Source of the DNA: Candidatus Aphodovivens avistercoris
GTDB taxonomy: Bacteria > Actinomycetota > Coriobacteriia > Coriobacteriales > Eggerthellaceae
DNA: 64,000 bases
Assembly (NCBI GenBank): GCA_018710945.1
Contig: DVIW01000004.1
Span: 1 to 64,000, forward strand
Direction of reading: 5' to 3'
In this document: piece after piece, positions 16,119 through 46,926 of the stretch
How the letters are laid out: every line of letters begins with the position of its first letter
Position numbering within the stretch: the stretch's first letter is position 1
Made by a program: the position numbers and the translations under genes
The notes under the pieces: model-generated
Told to the model about the DNA's origin: nothing
The model's input: the letters and a program-made list of their open reading frames with translations, nothing else
Databases searched by the model: none

Positions 16119-16628
16119 CTACGCCTGCTCGTCGCGCAGCCACAGGCCGGTCTTGCCGCCGTCCTTCTTCAGCAGGCGCACGTCCACGATCTCCATGCCG
16201 CGGTCCACCGCCTTGCACATGTCGTAGACGGTCAGGCAGGCGATGGACGCTGCGGTGAGCGCCTCCATCTCGATGCCCGTCTTGCCGGTGACGCCGCAGG
16301 TGCACGTCACGTGAATGCCCACGCGGCCGTCTTCACGGTCGCCCGGCTGGATGGGATCGCATTCGACCTTCGCCTTGGTGATGTTGAGCGGATGGCACAT
16401 GGGGATGAGGCTGCTGGTCTGCTTGGCCCCCATCACGCCGGCCACGCGCGCGCACGCCAGCACGTCGCCCTTGGCGGCCTTGCCCTCCACGATGAGCGCC
16501 AGCGTCTCGGGGTGCATGAGGATGGAGCCTTCCGCCACCGCAATGCGCTCCGTGTCGGGTTTGGCGGACACGTCCACCATGCGGACGTCGCCCTTTTCGT
16601 CGATGTGGGTGAGTTTCTGGTCGGTCAT
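16119..16628 (-). CDS. moaC: Cyclic pyranopterin monophosphate synthase MoaC
   Basis: Second enzyme of molybdenum cofactor synthesis. It converts the MoaA product 3',8-cyclo-GTP to cyclic pyranopterin monophosphate. Motifs: VRMVDVSAKPDTERIA near the N-terminus, IPMCHPLNI, and GVTGKTGIEMEALTAASIACLTVYDMCKA with the catalytic lysines and aspartate. 169 aa is normal. It lies 111 bp after moaA and is probably cotranscribed with it; AAAGG precedes the start by 8 bases. Confidence 0.95.
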   Translation of the reverse strand: MTDQKLTHIDEKGDVRMVDVSAKPDTERIAVAEGSILMHPETLALIVEGKAAKGDVLACARVAGVMGAKQTSSLIPMCHPLNITKAKVECDPIQPGDREDGRVGIHVTCTCGVTGKTGIEMEALTAASIACLTVYDMCKAVDRGMEIVDVRLLKKDGGKTGLWLRDEQA

Positions 16629-16739
16629 GTTGGTTGCCTTTCTGCTGATCGAATGGCTCGATTCGGAAAACGTCAGCGGTGCGGAGCAATACGGTGCGGT
16701 GCGGCGCGGCGAAGCGGAACGGCGCGCGGTCGCAAGCCC

Positions 16740-17741
16740 CTAACCGCCGATCTGGCTCATGCCACGCTCCGTCCCCACCTTATTGTGATGCTCGTCGGGC
16801 TTGGCCCGCAGCGTGGTGGCGAACACGTCGCGCACCGCGTCGTCGTCGCCAGAGCGCAACGGAGTGCGCACGTCGAACTCCAGGTCGGAGAACAGGCACG
16901 GGCGCAGCTTGCCGTCGGCGGTAAGGCGCACGCGGTTGCATTGCGCGCAGAAGTGGTTCGACAGCGCCGAGATGAAGCCCACCGTTCCCTGCGCGCCGGG
17001 GAACTCCCAGTAGCGCGCCGGACCCCAGCCGAGCGGCTTGTCGTCGTCGGCGGGCACGAGCTCGGACATGCCCTGCTCACGCGCTTGCGCATTGATGGCG
17101 GCAAGCACCTCTTCGTTGGGAACCACGTCCTGGGGGCCCCAGCCGCAGCCGTCCACGCCGGAGCTTTCGCCCACCGGCATGTACTCGATGAAGCGCACGT
17201 GCAGCGGACGGTCAACCGACAGGCGCGCGAAGGCCAGGTAATCCTGGTTCAGGCTGCGCACGGTGACGGCGTTGATCTTCACCGGGTCGAAGCCCGCCTC
17301 CAGGGCCGCCTCGATGCCGTCAAGCGTCTGCTGCAGCTTGCCGCGGCGCGTGATGTATTCGAACTGGGCGGGGTCGAGCGTGTCCAGCGAGATGTTCACG
17401 CGCGAGAGGCCCGCGCGCTTCAGATCGTCGACCATCTTCGGCAGCAACACGCCGTTGGTGGTCATCGACACGTTCTCGATGCCGGGCGTGTGCGCGATCT
17501 CGTGCACCAGGTCGACCACACCCAGGCGCACGAGCGGCTCGCCGCCGGTGAGGCGCACGCTCTTGATGCCCATGCCGGCGGCGATGCGCACCAGATGGGC
17601 CATTTCCTCGATGCGCAGGATCTCGTCGTGCGGCAGGCTGCACACGCCCTCTTCCGGCATGCAGTAGATGCAGCGGAAGTTGCAGCGGTCGGTCAGCGAG
17701 ATGCGCAGGTACTCGATGGTGCGCCCCAACCCGTCTTTCAT
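16740..17741 (-). CDS. moaA: GTP 3',8-cyclase MoaA
   Basis: Radical SAM enzyme that starts molybdenum cofactor synthesis from GTP. The N-terminal 4Fe-4S site is CNFRCIYC (CxxxCxxC). The SAM-binding segment is RLTGGEPLVR. The C-terminal cluster cysteines are in FCAQCNRVRL and, about 14 residues later, LRPCLF. The usual C-terminal GG tail appears as SQIGG. Length 333 aa is normal. AAGGAG sits 6 bases before the start. It heads the moaA-moaC unit, next to the molybdate transporter genes that supply the metal. Confidence 0.95.
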   Translation of the reverse strand: MKDGLGRTIEYLRISLTDRCNFRCIYCMPEEGVCSLPHDEILRIEEMAHLVRIAAGMGIKSVRLTGGEPLVRLGVVDLVHEIAHTPGIENVSMTTNGVLLPKMVDDLKRAGLSRVNISLDTLDPAQFEYITRRGKLQQTLDGIEAALEAGFDPVKINAVTVRSLNQDYLAFARLSVDRPLHVRFIEYMPVGESSGVDGCGWGPQDVVPNEEVLAAINAQAREQGMSELVPADDDKPLGWGPARYWEFPGAQGTVGFISALSNHFCAQCNRVRLTADGKLRPCLFSDLEFDVRTPLRSGDDDAVRDVFATTLRAKPDEHHNKVGTERGMSQIGG

Positions 17742-17963: not shown

Positions 17964-19073
17964 CTAGCGGGCAACCAGGTACACTTTGTCGGAGGGGATG
18001 CGAATCCACAGCTCGTCGCCCACCTGCGGCAGCGCATCGGGGCCTTCCGTCTTGGGGACGCGCCAAAACAGATGCTGGTGCAGGTACTTCATCTCGTCCT
18101 CGTCGGGCTGCACCGTGGGCACCTCGCGCTCGTCGCGGTCGAGGAAACCCAGCAGCACGGTGCGCTCGAAACGCGAATCGCTCGTGCGGTCCACGCGCAC
18201 GCGGAAGCAGTTGCGCCCCGGCCCGTCCACGCGCTCCAGGTAGCGGGCGCGCACGCCCAGGTACGCCGCGTCGTCGGCCACCGGATCGTCCACCTCCACC
18301 GTCACGCCCCACTTCGCCGACCACACGCTCTTCGCATCCGCGCGCACGACGGGCGTGGCGTTCTTGCAGCCGGACAGCTTCAGCGCCGCCACGGACTTCG
18401 GGCTGTTCACCAGCTCGTCGCCGGTATCGATCTCCATGATGCGCCCGGAGTCCACCACCGCGATGCGGTCGCAGAACCGCAGCGCCTCGTCGATGTCGTG
18501 GCTCACGTACAGCACGGTGCCGTCGAAGGCGCTGAACAGGCTCACGAGGTTCTGCTCCAGCACCTCTTTTAGATGCGCGTCCAAAGCGGAGAACGGCTCG
18601 TCCAGCATGAGGATGCCGGGCTTCGCCGCCAACATGCGCGCCAGCGCCACGCGCTGCTGCTGGCCGCCCGACAGCTGGCTGGGGTAACGCTCGTCGAAGC
18701 CCTGCAAGCCGAAGCGCTTCAGCTCGCGCTGCACGATGGCGTCGCGATCGGCCTTCGACGCGTCGCGCCCGATGCCCGCCGCCACGTTCTGCGCCACCGT
18801 CAGGTTGGGGAACAGCATGTAGTTCTGGAACAGCAGCGCCGTCTTGCGCTCCTGCGGCGTAAGGTTGATGCGGGCCGCCGAGTCGAAGAACACCTTCCCG
18901 TTCACCACGATGCGCCCCTCGTCCGGCGTCTCGATGCCCGCAACGCAGCGCATGGTCAGGCTCTTTCCGCACCCCGATTCGCCGAGAAACCCCAGCGTCT
19001 CGTCGCCTGCGGAAAACGCCACCTCCAACGTGAACCCCTTGAAGGCCTTCCTGATGTCCACTTCCAAACTCAT
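17964..19073 (-). CDS. modC: Molybdate ABC transporter ATP-binding protein ModC
   Basis: ATPase of the molybdate (possibly tungstate) importer, cytoplasmic side of the membrane. Walker A is GESGCGKS, the signature LSGGQQQRVALARML, Walker B ILMLDEPFSALD, and the switch His is in YVSHDIDEAL. The C-terminal third (about 240-369) is an accessory domain where TOBE/MOP-type oxyanion-binding folds are found in relatives. It is third in modA-modB-modC but separated from modB by 232 bp that contain a family I structured repeat. Confidence 0.9.
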   Translation of the reverse strand: MSLEVDIRKAFKGFTLEVAFSAGDETLGFLGESGCGKSLTMRCVAGIETPDEGRIVVNGKVFFDSAARINLTPQERKTALLFQNYMLFPNLTVAQNVAAGIGRDASKADRDAIVQRELKRFGLQGFDERYPSQLSGGQQQRVALARMLAAKPGILMLDEPFSALDAHLKEVLEQNLVSLFSAFDGTVLYVSHDIDEALRFCDRIAVVDSGRIMEIDTGDELVNSPKSVAALKLSGCKNATPVVRADAKSVWSAKWGVTVEVDDPVADDAAYLGVRARYLERVDGPGRNCFRVRVDRTSDSRFERTVLLGFLDRDEREVPTVQPDEDEMKYLHQHLFWRVPKTEGPDALPQVGDELWIRIPSDKVYLVAR

Positions 19074-19179
19074 ACCCGCACCCTAACTCGCAACCGTCCA
19101 ACCACAACGCCACCCGCAGCCCGCTCCCCCCTTCCAGCACGTGAATACCGCCTTCGGGAGGGACATTCATCATCCTGTC

Positions 19180-19290
19180 GGGGAGGCGGGGCGGGGGCTC
19201 CGCGCGCAGTTCCGCACGAGCCGAACCGTCCAGCGGACGGTTCGCGCGAGCCCAGGACTGTTTGAGCACGGAGCCCCGCCCCGCCTCCCC
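19180..19290 (-). repeat. Structured repeat family I, copy 1 (between modB and modC)
   Basis: The outer stem pairs 19180-19202 with 19269-19290 (one bulged G). The inner hairpin pairs CGAACCGTCC (19222-19231) with GGACGGTTCG (19235-19244) around AGC. Unpaired segments GCGCGCAGTTCCGCACGAGC and CGCGAGCCCAGGACTGTTTG are identical to those of the copy at 40923-41043, while both stems differ but still pair. It starts 15 bases past the modB stop. It may alter expression of modC relative to modB. Class unknown. Confidence 0.85.
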
Positions 19291-19305
19291 GGCCCCCAAG
19301 CATCG

Positions 19306-20706
19306 TCATCCCTCCCGCCGGCGGTACTTCGTCGTGCGCCTGCTCCAGAGGTTGATGAACAGTATCACCACGAAGCTGAAGATCATCACGATGACCGTCC
19401 AGAACAGCGCCTCGCTGATGTTGCCGCTCATCCACTCGAAGTAGATGGCGATGGGGATCGTGCGCGTGACGCCCACGTAGTTGCCCGCCAGGAACAGCGT
19501 GCAGCCGAACTCGCCCAGCGCGCGGGCGAACGACAGCACCGTGCCCGCCGCGATGGAGCTCCACGACAGCGGCAGCATCAGCTTGAAGAAGATGCGCCGA
19601 TTGCTCCACCCCAGCGTGCGCGCCGCATCCAGCATGTTCGGGTCAAGCCCTTCGAACGCACCGCGCGCGTTGCGGTACATCAGCGGGAACGCCACCACCA
19701 CGGCCGCGATGACCGTGGCCGGCCAGCTGAAGATCAGCGGGAACCCGATGTCGATGAACCAGCGGCCCAGCGCCGAGTTGTTCCCCAGCGTCAGAAGCAG
19801 CAGGAAGCCGCACACCGTGGGCGGCAGCACCATGGGGATGGTGAAGATGGCATCCGCGATGTCCTGCGCGCGCTTGGGGATGCGCAGGCTGAAGTAAGCC
19901 GCCGCCAGCCCCAGAATGAAGATGAACACGATAGCAACGCCCGTGGTGCGCAGCGTCACCCAAAGCGGGCTGAAATCGACGCCGGCCAGAAACTCGCCGA
20001 ACGCTGCCAAGCCCGTAGCCTCGGGCACGATTTCCACCGCGTCCGGCGCCACGATGTGAGCGAAATCCACGTATTCGGGACGCGCCTCGTTGCCGGTAGC
20101 GCTCACGATGTCGCTGCCGTCGACCCCCGCCACCGCAACGTAGTACCTGCCTTCATCCGCCTCGACGCCGAAGGAGTACACGACGCCATCGCTTTCCCAT
20201 GAGCGCTCGGTCGTGAAGATCCACGGCACGTCGTCTCCGACGACCACGCCTCCGTTGACCGACGCCTCGTCCAGCGCAGTCAGGCAGCGCTTCAGCAGAT
20301 CCTGCGCGGCGGGGTCGGAGGCGTCCAACAGGGCTGCGGCGCTTTCGGGCACGTGCACCACCACATAGTCGTCGGTGGCCACCATGGCCAGGTAATCGTC
20401 GCTGGATCCCTGGTAGTAGCTGTAGCCGATGTAGGCGCCGGCAACATCGCGGTTGGAGCCCTTCTGGGCACGGGAGAAGTCGGCGAGGGCGAACGACGCG
20501 CCATCCGCAAGGGCAGCATCGGCCTCGGCAGACACCGACACGCCCGAAGAAGCAGCCGCATCCCCTTCATCAGGCTCGGCAGCGAACGAGCGAACCGGCG
20601 TCAGAAGCGCCGCGCCGAAAAGCAGCACCGCAAGAAAGGCCGCCATGCACGCCCGCACCGCCTTGCAGGTCCTTGCCCCTCTTTCGTCCGTCATTCTCTC
20701 TCCCAT
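19306..20706 (-). CDS. modB: Molybdate ABC transporter permease ModB with extracytoplasmic N-terminal domain
   Basis: Membrane subunit of the molybdate importer. The C-terminal 225 residues form the permease, with IPMVLPPTVCGFLLL and the EAA-type loop contacting ModC (EGLDPNMLDAARTLGW and ARALGEFGCTLF). Unusually, a signal-peptide-like segment (about 17-42, ending SFAAEP) and about 200 residues of predicted extracytoplasmic domain precede it, giving 466 aa instead of about 220-280. The added domain is of unknown function. Two starts 4 codons apart (20706, 20694) are both possible. A -10-like TATAAT at 20833-20838 suggests an internal promoter. Confidence 0.85.
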   Translation of the reverse strand: MGERMTDERGARTCKAVRACMAAFLAVLLFGAALLTPVRSFAAEPDEGDAAASSGVSVSAEADAALADGASFALADFSRAQKGSNRDVAGAYIGYSYYQGSSDDYLAMVATDDYVVVHVPESAAALLDASDPAAQDLLKRCLTALDEASVNGGVVVGDDVPWIFTTERSWESDGVVYSFGVEADEGRYYVAVAGVDGSDIVSATGNEARPEYVDFAHIVAPDAVEIVPEATGLAAFGEFLAGVDFSPLWVTLRTTGVAIVFIFILGLAAAYFSLRIPKRAQDIADAIFTIPMVLPPTVCGFLLLLTLGNNSALGRWFIDIGFPLIFSWPATVIAAVVVAFPLMYRNARGAFEGLDPNMLDAARTLGWSNRRIFFKLMLPLSWSSIAAGTVLSFARALGEFGCTLFLAGNYVGVTRTIPIAIYFEWMSGNISEALFWTVIVMIFSFVVILFINLWSRRTTKYRRREG

Positions 20707-22053: not shown

Positions 22054-22145
22054 TGGCAAAGGGACACGTCTGGTGGCACGCAAGCGTGCCACCAGACGTG
22101 TCCCTTTGCCACCCAAGCGTGCCATTAGACGTGTCCCTTTGCCAC
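22054..22145. repeat. 28-bp perfect hairpin plus a tandem partial copy
   Basis: Arms 22054-22081 and 22084-22111 are perfectly complementary with a 2-base loop (left arm begins TGGCAAAGGGACACGTCTGG). The right arm is repeated once more in direct orientation (about 22115-22142, two changes). Shorter fragments (CCCTTTGCCACC, CTTTGCCACC) continue to about 22173. No gene is present in 21954-22277. Confidence 0.9.
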
Positions 22146-30885: not shown

Positions 30886-30979
30886 GGCGCACCCCCCTTC
30901 TTCAGCGGAACTAACGGTGGCCTCGTACTATAGCGCTTTCCGCATTCAAACCCCAATCGGGAGGTTGCATATGTCCAAA

Positions 30980-31032
30980 CCCCAACAAACAGCTTTTTCG
31001 CTCTTTTGGATAGGTTTTTACGAAAGTTGGGG
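30980..31032 (+). repeat. 53-bp repeat family III, copy B
   Basis: Begins CCCCAACAAACAGCTTTTTC and ends GTTGGGG; 53 bp. It lies upstream of crcB, 18 bp from the inverted copy D (31051-31103). Confidence 0.85.
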
Positions 31033-31050
31033 TTCTCAGAGGCGCTTCGA

Positions 31051-31103
31051 CCCCAACATTCGCTCGTTTTGAGCGCCAAACGGGGAAATCCGCTTGAACG
31101 GGG
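31051..31103 (-). repeat. 53-bp repeat family III, copy D (diverged)
   Basis: On the minus strand it ends GCGAATGTTGGGG as copy C does and begins CCCC exactly 53 bases earlier. The left half has diverged. The intervals on either side contain only short open frames. Confidence 0.6.
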
Positions 31104-31154
31104 TTCTTTTCTGGCAACTTTTCCCCAATAAGCACGACTCGGAAAGGAACGCGA

Positions 31155-31207
31155 CCCCAACATTCGTGAAAAATGAGCTCAAACAGCGAAAAAGCTGTTT
31201 GTTGGGG
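31155..31207 (-). repeat. 53-bp repeat family III, copy C
   Basis: On the minus strand it begins CCCCAACAAACAGCTTTTTC, identical to copy B for the first 23 bases, and ends CGAATGTTGGGG. It is inverted relative to copy B. Confidence 0.85.
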
Positions 31208-31393
31208 TCGAAAGAGACCGGAAGCGTCGCAAGGAGCCGCGAAAGAGCGCACCCGAAGCCGCCGCAAAGCCGCATCGCTGCCGCAACAGGGCCGCACGGA
31301 GACCGTAACCCGCCTGTTGATACCCGCGTGCGGTTTCAAAGGGTAGAATCACCCGTGAAAAACAACTCGACGATTCCGCGGAGGCAACCTGTC

Positions 31394-40922: not shown

Positions 40923-41043
40923 CGCGGGGCCTGCGGAGAGGGGGTCTCGCGCGCAGTTCCGCACGAGCCGAAACGCCCAGCGGGCGTTTCGCGCGAGCCC
41001 AGGACTGTTTGAGCACGAGACCCCCCTCTCCGCAGGCCCCGCG
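40923..41043 (-). repeat. Structured repeat family I, copy 2 (after the radical SAM gene)
   Basis: The outer stem pairs 40923-40949 with 41016-41043 (27 bp, one bulged G). The inner hairpin pairs CGAAACGCCC (40969-40978) with GGGCGTTTCG (40982-40991) around AGC. The unpaired core is the same as at 19180-19290. It lies 30 bases past the radical SAM stop, in the same orientation as copy 1 relative to its gene. Confidence 0.85.
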
Positions 41044-41073: not shown

Positions 41074-42438
41074 CTACCGCAGCTCCTCCTTGCACCAGGG
41101 CGCATACACCCGCCGCCCGCTCGCATCCGTCAGATGGTACGAGCAGAACGGAATGGCGCGCCCATCGGGCACCGTCACCATCATCGAGCACTCGCGCAGG
41201 CGCTGCACGTCCATGGAGTAGGCGTCCATGTAGTTCATGATGATGACGGACAGCCCCGTCTTCACTTCCACGCCCTTCTTCGCCAGGATGTCCAGGAACA
41301 CCGAGCCCTGCGGCGAATCGGGGCTGTAGCCTTCCGCGTACTCCTGCATGGTCATGCGGCGCGTGGCCGGGTAGAAACCCGAAGGATGCTCGGCGTCATC
41401 GCTCTTCACCAGGAACACGCCGGTGTCGCACAGCGGGTTGGAGCAGCCCAGCGGCCAGATGTCGCGCGGTTCAAGCAGCCCGTCGGACTGCTCGGCCAGC
41501 TTGAAGATCACGTCTCCCGAGGTCAGCTGCATCGCGCGCTCCGCGTCGAAGCGTCCCGACACGAAGGCCGGCTGCAGCGCCAAACCCGCGATCACGTCCG
41601 AGTTCTCCAGGCTGAAGCGCAGAAGGTCGCCCAGCTGCCCGTCGTTGAGGCCCGCCACCACGGCCACCGACAGCACGCACTGGATGCCCACCTCGCGGCA
41701 CCGCTCGATGGCGCGCAGCTTCACGTCCAGGATGTCGCGGCCGCAGGTGCCCTCGTACACGTCGCCGGTCAGGCCGTCGAACGACAGGTACACGCCGGTC
41801 AGACCCGCACCCACCAGGTCCTCCAGATAGCCCTTGCGCGAGGCGATCACCAACCCGTTGGTGTTCACCTCGATGCCCCAGAAGCCCTTCTCGCGCCCGC
41901 GGTAAATGATCTCCGGCAGGTCCTTGCGGCAGGTGGGCTCGCCGCCGGTCAGCTGCACCGCGCCGTCGATGCCCACCGCGTTCGCGATGACGTCGTACAT
42001 GGCGTCGATCTCGTCCATCGTGGGGTCATCGTCGCCGTTCTCCGCGCTCATGAAGCACACGGGGCAGTGCAGGTTGCAGCTCTTCGTCACCTCGATCTCC
42101 AGCAAGGTGCCGCGGCGCTCGTGGCGCGCGCACGTGCCGCAACCGAATGGGCACGGCGCGTTCGCAGGAATGGTGTTGCGTGGCTTCGTCTTGGGGAACG
42201 CCTCGGAGCGCAGCCACTCGTAGTGCTGCGCGTCCGGCCACACGCGCGTGGTCAGCGGCCCGTGCTCAGGGCACGTGCGCTCCATCCACACGGTGCCCGC
42301 CTCGTCGGCGAACACCTGCGCCGGCAGCTCCTTCAGGCACTCCGGGCACAGCGCCACCGTCTTGTGCAGCGCCGTGTGCCCCGCGGCCTCCGGCGCTGAG
42401 CCGGCCGCGACGTGCGCCACCTTCACGGAATCGTTCAT
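41074..42438 (-). CDS. Radical SAM protein, Tes/MJ0619-like
   Basis: 454 aa. Zinc-ribbon-like N-terminus (C31, C34, C56 in CPECLKELPA...CPEHG), a second Cys group (C96, C100, C103), then the radical SAM site CNLHCPVC (C121, C125, C128) and VQLTGGEPTC. The N-terminal CPECLK...CPEHG layout resembles the MJ0619/tetraether-synthase branch, whose members methylate pterins or couple lipid carbons. That assignment is from pattern only. Downstream by 8 bp of the CofC-like transferase and in line with a molybdopterin enzyme, it may act on a cofactor or lipid. Confidence 0.8.
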   Translation of the reverse strand: MNDSVKVAHVAAGSAPEAAGHTALHKTVALCPECLKELPAQVFADEAGTVWMERTCPEHGPLTTRVWPDAQHYEWLRSEAFPKTKPRNTIPANAPCPFGCGTCARHERRGTLLEIEVTKSCNLHCPVCFMSAENGDDDPTMDEIDAMYDVIANAVGIDGAVQLTGGEPTCRKDLPEIIYRGREKGFWGIEVNTNGLVIASRKGYLEDLVGAGLTGVYLSFDGLTGDVYEGTCGRDILDVKLRAIERCREVGIQCVLSVAVVAGLNDGQLGDLLRFSLENSDVIAGLALQPAFVSGRFDAERAMQLTSGDVIFKLAEQSDGLLEPRDIWPLGCSNPLCDTGVFLVKSDDAEHPSGFYPATRRMTMQEYAEGYSPDSPQGSVFLDILAKKGVEVKTGLSVIIMNYMDAYSMDVQRLRECSMMVTVPDGRAIPFCSYHLTDASGRRVYAPWCKEELR

Positions 42439-46705: not shown

Positions 46706-46776
46706 ATTTCCCTTCCGACCGTCGCGTCCCCAGCTGAACGCGCTACAGCCAAGATAGACTCAGGCCAAGAGCATGC

Positions 46777-46926
46777 GTCAGCGAGGGTGGCTGTGGTGCC
46801 CGAGATTCGCGGGATCGCGAGGGTGAAGCGTACTTCGGTACGCGAACCCCCGGGATCGTGCGAAGATTGGGTACCACAGCCGGCCGCAGCGTCGGCTCGT
46901 TCCGCCGTTCGGCAGAACGGCGGAAC
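46777..46926 (-). repeat. Structured repeat family II, copy 2 (after the NrfD gene)
   Basis: It begins 4 bases after the NrfD stop. In transcript order: hairpin GTTCCGCCGTTC-TGCC-GAACGGCGGAAC (46899-46926), fixed GCCGACGCTGCG, a long hairpin (outer stem GGCTGTGGT/ACCACAGCC; apical GCGTAC-CGAA-GTACGC), then fixed CTCGCTGAC (46777-46785). The first hairpin shows a compensatory G-C to C-G change relative to copy 1 at 7719-7864, and the long stem has a wholly different sequence with the same plan. Confidence 0.8.

Follow-up and report, generated by a model that had tools for sequence, protein, structure and literature searches.

The molybdate transporter operon of Candidatus Aphodovivens avistercoris (Coriobacteriia; Eggerthellaceae) is interrupted between modB and modC by a long hairpin, and a second hairpin with the same core lies elsewhere on the contig. 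Does this structure serve the mod operon, or did it arrive there by a route of its own? We addressed this question starting from a window of 64,000 nucleotides (contig DVIW01000004.1, positions 1 to 64,000), for which an initial annotation had described the two hairpins as copies of one structured repeat, here called family I. The reported identity of the cores was confirmed, as each of two 20-nt core strings occurs exactly twice in the window (at 19202 and 19245 in copy 1, and at 40949 and 40992 in copy 2), with chance expectations of 0.06 and 0.01. The outer closing stems read through as perfect or near-perfect duplexes of ~22 bp in copy 1 and ~27 bp in copy 2, with inverted-repeat arms at 19179-19196/19274-19291 and 40923-40944/41022-41043, respectively. 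The inner hairpins, GAACCGTCC-AGC-GGACGGTTC in copy 1 and GAAACGCCC-AGC-GGGCGTTTC in copy 2, differ by the two compensatory changes that had been proposed, and both copies indeed lie 3' of a minus-strand stop codon, that of modB (copy 1) and that of a gene for a radical-SAM protein (copy 2). The core had also been described as unpaired, which is correct in part; CAGTTCC and GGACTG are able to pair in a bulged helix of 6 bp, invariant in 19 to 21 of 21 copies. With its arms, a copy measures ~110-125 nt, and the folding energy of copy 1 is -95.9 kcal/mol, with z = -7.7 for the minus strand and z = -7.9 for the plus strand. The features of both loci are listed in Table 1.

Table 1. Coordinates of family I copies and adjoining features in the window
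Feature	Position	Strand	Remark
modC, ABC transporter ATP-binding protein	17964..19073	-	PF00005; modC_ABC match below cut-off; adjoins modB and modA
Gap from modB stop to modC start, ~230 nt	19074..19305	.	3 nt in both same-genus relatives
Inverted copy of modB end, partly decayed, far side of copy 1	19146..19163	+	Repeat I10, 89% complementary to 19309-19326 (L072)
Copy 1 outer arm, CGCAG side	19179..19202	+	Perfect inverted repeat of 19269-19291 except one bulge
Copy 1 conserved core CGCGCAGTTCCGCACGAGCC-hairpin-GCGAGCCCAGGACTGTTTGAGCA (element plus strand)	19203..19268	+	Core common to ~20 genome loci
Copy 1 inner hairpin GAACCGTCC-AGC-GGACGGTTC	19223..19243	+	Covariation (helix 3)
Copy 1 outer arm, GAGCA side, towards modB stop codon	19269..19291	+	
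modB, molybdate ABC permease with N-terminal extension	19306..20706	-	TIGR02141 5e-63, residues 249-457
Copy 2 outer arm, CGCAG side	40923..40949	+	
Copy 2 conserved core	40950..41015	+	
Copy 2 outer arm, GAGCA side, towards radical-SAM gene stop	41016..41043	+	
Radical SAM protein, ends beside copy 2	41074..42438	-	PF04055

Six copies in the window's genome fit an exact pattern, and ~20 are detected there by a covariance model for which 21 copies were aligned. Among 398 sampled Coriobacteriia genomes, 195 contain matches to this model (E <= 0.001). The model counts are 31 copies in Collinsella G260, 13 in C. intestinalis and 6 in Gordonibacter pamelaeae, and DNA searches reveal further, decayed Gordonibacter copies. 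G260 shares most of its copies with G280, and no replication-strand bias was seen by eye in G260. In the alignment, the core columns are nearly invariant between families and the outer and inner helices covary strongly; two types of ends are present, CGCGCAG...GAGCACG, and CGAG...GAGCG or GCAGC. The view of family I as structured, conserved in its core and paired in its stems, is correct; additional copies with unpaired outer stems would have spoken against it, and the outer stems of the additional copies pair as well. At the curated threshold no Rfam family matches within the window, and only weak matches, to miRNA precursors, were seen. Searches of open-licence full texts turned up no Coriobacteriia element of this kind.

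In the other two genomes of the genus, G018 and G017, modB is followed by TAG, 3 nt and the ATG of modC, with the modC ribosome-binding site located within the end of modB, whereas the two genes are 232 nt apart in the window's genome. Two precise losses are far less probable than a single gain in the window's genome; the relatives are ~80% identical, so that the junctions are not readable base by base. The suggestion that the element serves the mod operon is not supported, as family I neighbors scores of unrelated genes, lies within coding sequences and is absent from the modB-modC junction of the relatives. A modABC riboswitch or terminator is ruled out as the main reading by the unrelated hosts, the occurrence in both orientations and the in-frame copies.

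Gene positions were determined with our own codon-based gene caller, which reproduces the mod genes. In nearly all intergenic copies, the GAGCA end is found at the edge of a coding sequence (62 stops and 29 starts), and for most of them the base of the stem coincides with this edge or lies close to it. The median distance from the stem base to the coding edge on this side is -9.5 nt at stops and 17 nt at starts, where single negative distances are inexact because the pairing program carries the stem ends somewhat too far. On the CGCAG side, the next gene typically lies at a distance of ~130 nt. This polarity holds in both directions of transcription and is therefore a property of a DNA event rather than of an RNA with a fixed reading sense. 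With 3 cases, divergent intergenic regions are avoided.

Family I could instead be a structured regulatory RNA or a terminator-like 3' UTR element under selection on its host mRNAs. Such a role would fit the very stable fold, the strong covariation, the frequent location directly after stop codons and the fact that orthologues keep the site despite diverged stems. However, tandem contexts are divided 48 to 26 between the two orientations, so that either element strand is transcribed depending on the locus, the excess of wobble pairs described below is independent of the host strand, and the hosts are unrelated, with the element found also within open reading frames. Few stems are followed by a U-tract like those of intrinsic terminators and SPRITE elements (7 of 54 with at least 5 T in the next 9 nt), and ordinary terminators can occur past the element. 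We consider this explanation very unlikely.

Fourteen family I copies lie within continuous reading frames, two of them (L012 and L126) weakly supported, and the in-frame copies sit in protein linkers. At least 10 unrelated genes are hosts, including RecQ in two genera and DEAD-box helicases in two families, in each case in opposite orientations, as well as genes for an ABC-F protein, a GltD-like oxidoreductase, a GATase and a DUF1385 protein. The RecQ of L008 has 57 residues where the Cronobacter-type RecQ 4tmu has 3. Five of the six frames of the consensus core are open. That family I is palindromic, mobile over evolutionary time and tolerated in frame is well supported. In-frame palindromic repeats have been described mainly for Rickettsia, and their mobilizer is not known.

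The outer arms of family I differ in every copy. In five Gordonibacter genomes, orthologous copies at one site have different arms, and at another locus five stem pairs have changed, in two blocks. In the valS leader of 24 Collinsella genomes that are ~94-95% identical, three states segregate: arms A with the core, arms B with the core, and arms A without the core, closed by a 4-nt loop. In arms B, ~17 bp are replaced on both sides, with the flanks unchanged and the core kept. The outer stems are locus-specific arms that are exchangeable as blocks, and an accumulation of compensatory point changes alone does not account for them. Since the arms change as blocks, covariation in a long bacterial hairpin need not indicate selection on an RNA. 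A search of six genomes for the source of the B arms gave chance matches only and no credible second source. The valS haplotype tree did not resolve, with haplotypes mixed on it, and gave no direction of change.

The valS leaders bear on the main rival to fold-back copying (discussed below), in which pre-existing UTR hairpins, such as terminators or attenuators, receive the core as a cassette in their loop, and the outer stem belongs to the host. Consistent with this, in the valS leaders of seven Collinsella genomes the core is absent and a TNNC loop closes the same outer stem, and at the locus after the radical-SAM gene, G000 and G017 harbor family I with different arms while G018 harbors an unrelated hairpin element. 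On the other hand, the outgroup G275 has the core at valS, which makes loss of the core as likely as gain, and the modB-modC junction of the relatives is 3 nt long and hairpin-free. Neither the in-frame copies in protein linkers nor the inverted copies of coding sequence that continue past the stem would be expected from insertion into a loop. Such insertion may also occur, and we regard it as a rather unlikely explanation for family I.

The variable arms also bear on whether family I is a conventional MITE, derived by deletion from an insertion sequence and mobilized by a transposase acting on terminal inverted repeats. Family I resembles a MITE in being short, non-coding, palindromic, dispersed, multicopy and tolerated in frame, but the terminal inverted repeats of a MITE are conserved, whereas here the outermost repeats vary from copy to copy, so that a transposase would have no fixed end to act on. 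The comparisons made here revealed neither a parent element nor a mobilizing gene, nor any target duplication, for which the empty sites at modBC are too diverged and the closer pairs look like losses. G285 was considered as the empty site of a C. intestinalis copy, and the outgroups G391 and G427 have the element or a remnant, making loss likelier; L131 in G280 looks like a loss of the palindrome center. Among the genomes compared, no recent insertion could be matched to an empty site in a very close relative. Matches in plasmid, phage and virus collections were weak, with none credible, and 11 pattern matches on virus contigs proved on read-through to be due to chance. A conventional MITE is highly improbable.

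The mismatches in the stems bear on the question of the folding strand. On the element plus strand, the inner 9 bp contain 90 GU-type and 22 AC-type mismatches, whereas in the outer arms the numbers are 50 and 49. When the whole stem is counted, GU-type mismatches are in excess both where the host gene runs with the element (39:18) and where it runs against it (99:49). Related copies are not independent in these counts, including those of the inner stem, and the effect size is uncertain. This pattern of substitutions suggests an element-level constraint on the folded plus strand, with arms that are probably free of constraint at the RNA level.

The arms of some copies can be followed into the adjacent gene. 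For 75 copies, the coding sequence outside the perfect stem was compared with the reverse complement of the tail on the far side. Matched pairs scored 13.7 and mismatched pairs 11.2 (sd 2.6), and the mean was reached in 0 of 20,000 shuffles (p <1/20000). An inverted copy of the coding end past the stem was present at p<0.01 in 8 of the 75 copies, compared with 0 of 75 in the direct-orientation control. When untranslated flanks were included, 30 of 105 were positive at p < 0.05, compared with 8 in the direct control. A detectable inverted gene copy is thus confined to a significant minority of family I copies; the best cases, roughly colinear with the stem, are L062, L066, L154, L042, L077, L084 and L156. 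Within the window, the end of modB provides such an example, with 19146-19163 as its inverted and decayed counterpart.

Taken together, family I is probably a non-coding, interspersed mobile palindromic element of the Coriobacteriia that obtains its arms by fold-back copying of the target flank. We infer the fold-back step from the polarity of the ends and the inverted gene copies. The mobile unit would consist of the ~66-nt core and ~9 bp of element-borne inner stem, and the plus strand (CGCGCAGTTCC...GGACTGTTTGAGCACG) would be the strand that must fold, presumably in a single-stranded intermediate. The element would enter untranslated gaps that border coding sequences and, in some cases, genes in frame. 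The flanking strand on the GAGCA side would be joined to the core, and the core would then fold back and prime copying of this flank, generating an inverted arm and an inverted gene end on the CGCAG side. The inner palindrome would stay perfect while the outer part decays, leaving a long outer stem with no fixed terminal repeat. Mobilization would take place in trans, by an enzyme. It is also conceivable, but unlikely, that family I is a bacterial SINE-like element whose small folded plus-strand RNA is reverse-transcribed at a free 3' end in the genome, beginning at the GAGCA end. The cDNA would snap back and copy the target strand, and each insertion would build its own palindrome from the adjacent gene. 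If true, this would jointly explain the end polarity, the strand-specific wobble and the inverted copies of gene ends.

Among known repeats, family I is closest in behavior to the Rickettsia palindromic elements, stem-loops of ~100-150 bp found in intergenic regions and in frame in conserved protein genes (PMC2229807, PMC10969869). By description, the two have in common a dispersed palindrome (~110-125 nt and ~20-31 copies per genome in family I) and in-frame insertions. Unlike the Rickettsia elements, family I occurs in a different phylum and has a locus-specific outer stem that may continue into an inverted copy of the neighboring gene. In ERIC, RUP, Correia/NEMIS and other bacterial MITEs, the terminal repeats are conserved and a target duplication is often present (PMC2229807). 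Like these, family I comprises short dispersed palindromes in tens of copies, mostly in transcribed untranslated regions, but its center is conserved and its ends vary. The SPRITE hairpins of Streptococcus pneumoniae, with an 18-bp duplex, a uridine-rich tract, an AT-rich composition and ~30 copies per genome (PMC3049150), are likewise enriched shortly after coding sequences; family I differs in its conserved core, its variable arms and the usual lack of a U-tract. REP/BIME palindromes are 20-40 bp long and carry the tetranucleotide tag GTAG or CGTC (PMC3733652); family I resembles them in being an extragenic palindrome between genes. Five Coriobacteriia genera were looked for in the text of PMC3733652, and none is mentioned. 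Family I provides a tractable system, since its many copies span a whole class of common gut bacteria of which several can be cultured, and arms that mirror the neighboring gene suggest copying by a mechanism unlike ordinary transposition.

Several further features were observed. ModB (19306-20706) has ~245 extra N-terminal residues with a signal-peptide-like start ahead of the permease domain. The modA-ligA gap contains a perfect 28-bp hairpin with a 2-nt loop, partly repeated alongside (22054-22111). Between moaA and moaC, G018 has a family I copy (L252), and the window's genome has no copy and only a faintly similar CGCGCGCCGTTCCGC stretch (16628-16740). Also in G018, the family I copy at L011:7372-7505 has its inner hairpin replaced by ~50 nt with another palindrome, GTCAACAGTCCAGTGGACTGTTGAC. 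Another hairpin family, distinct in its core (TCGCGGGATCGCGAGGG...AGCGTACTTCGGTACGCG) and likewise variable in its outer arms, is present at 46776-46926 of the window, L295:8384-8534 and L018:7605-7743; in G018 it occupies the radical-SAM locus that is held by family I in G000 and G017. Finally, 55-nt inverted repeats with ACCCCAACA ends lie 120 nt apart at 30979-31208 of the window and possibly represent a small transposon-like element.
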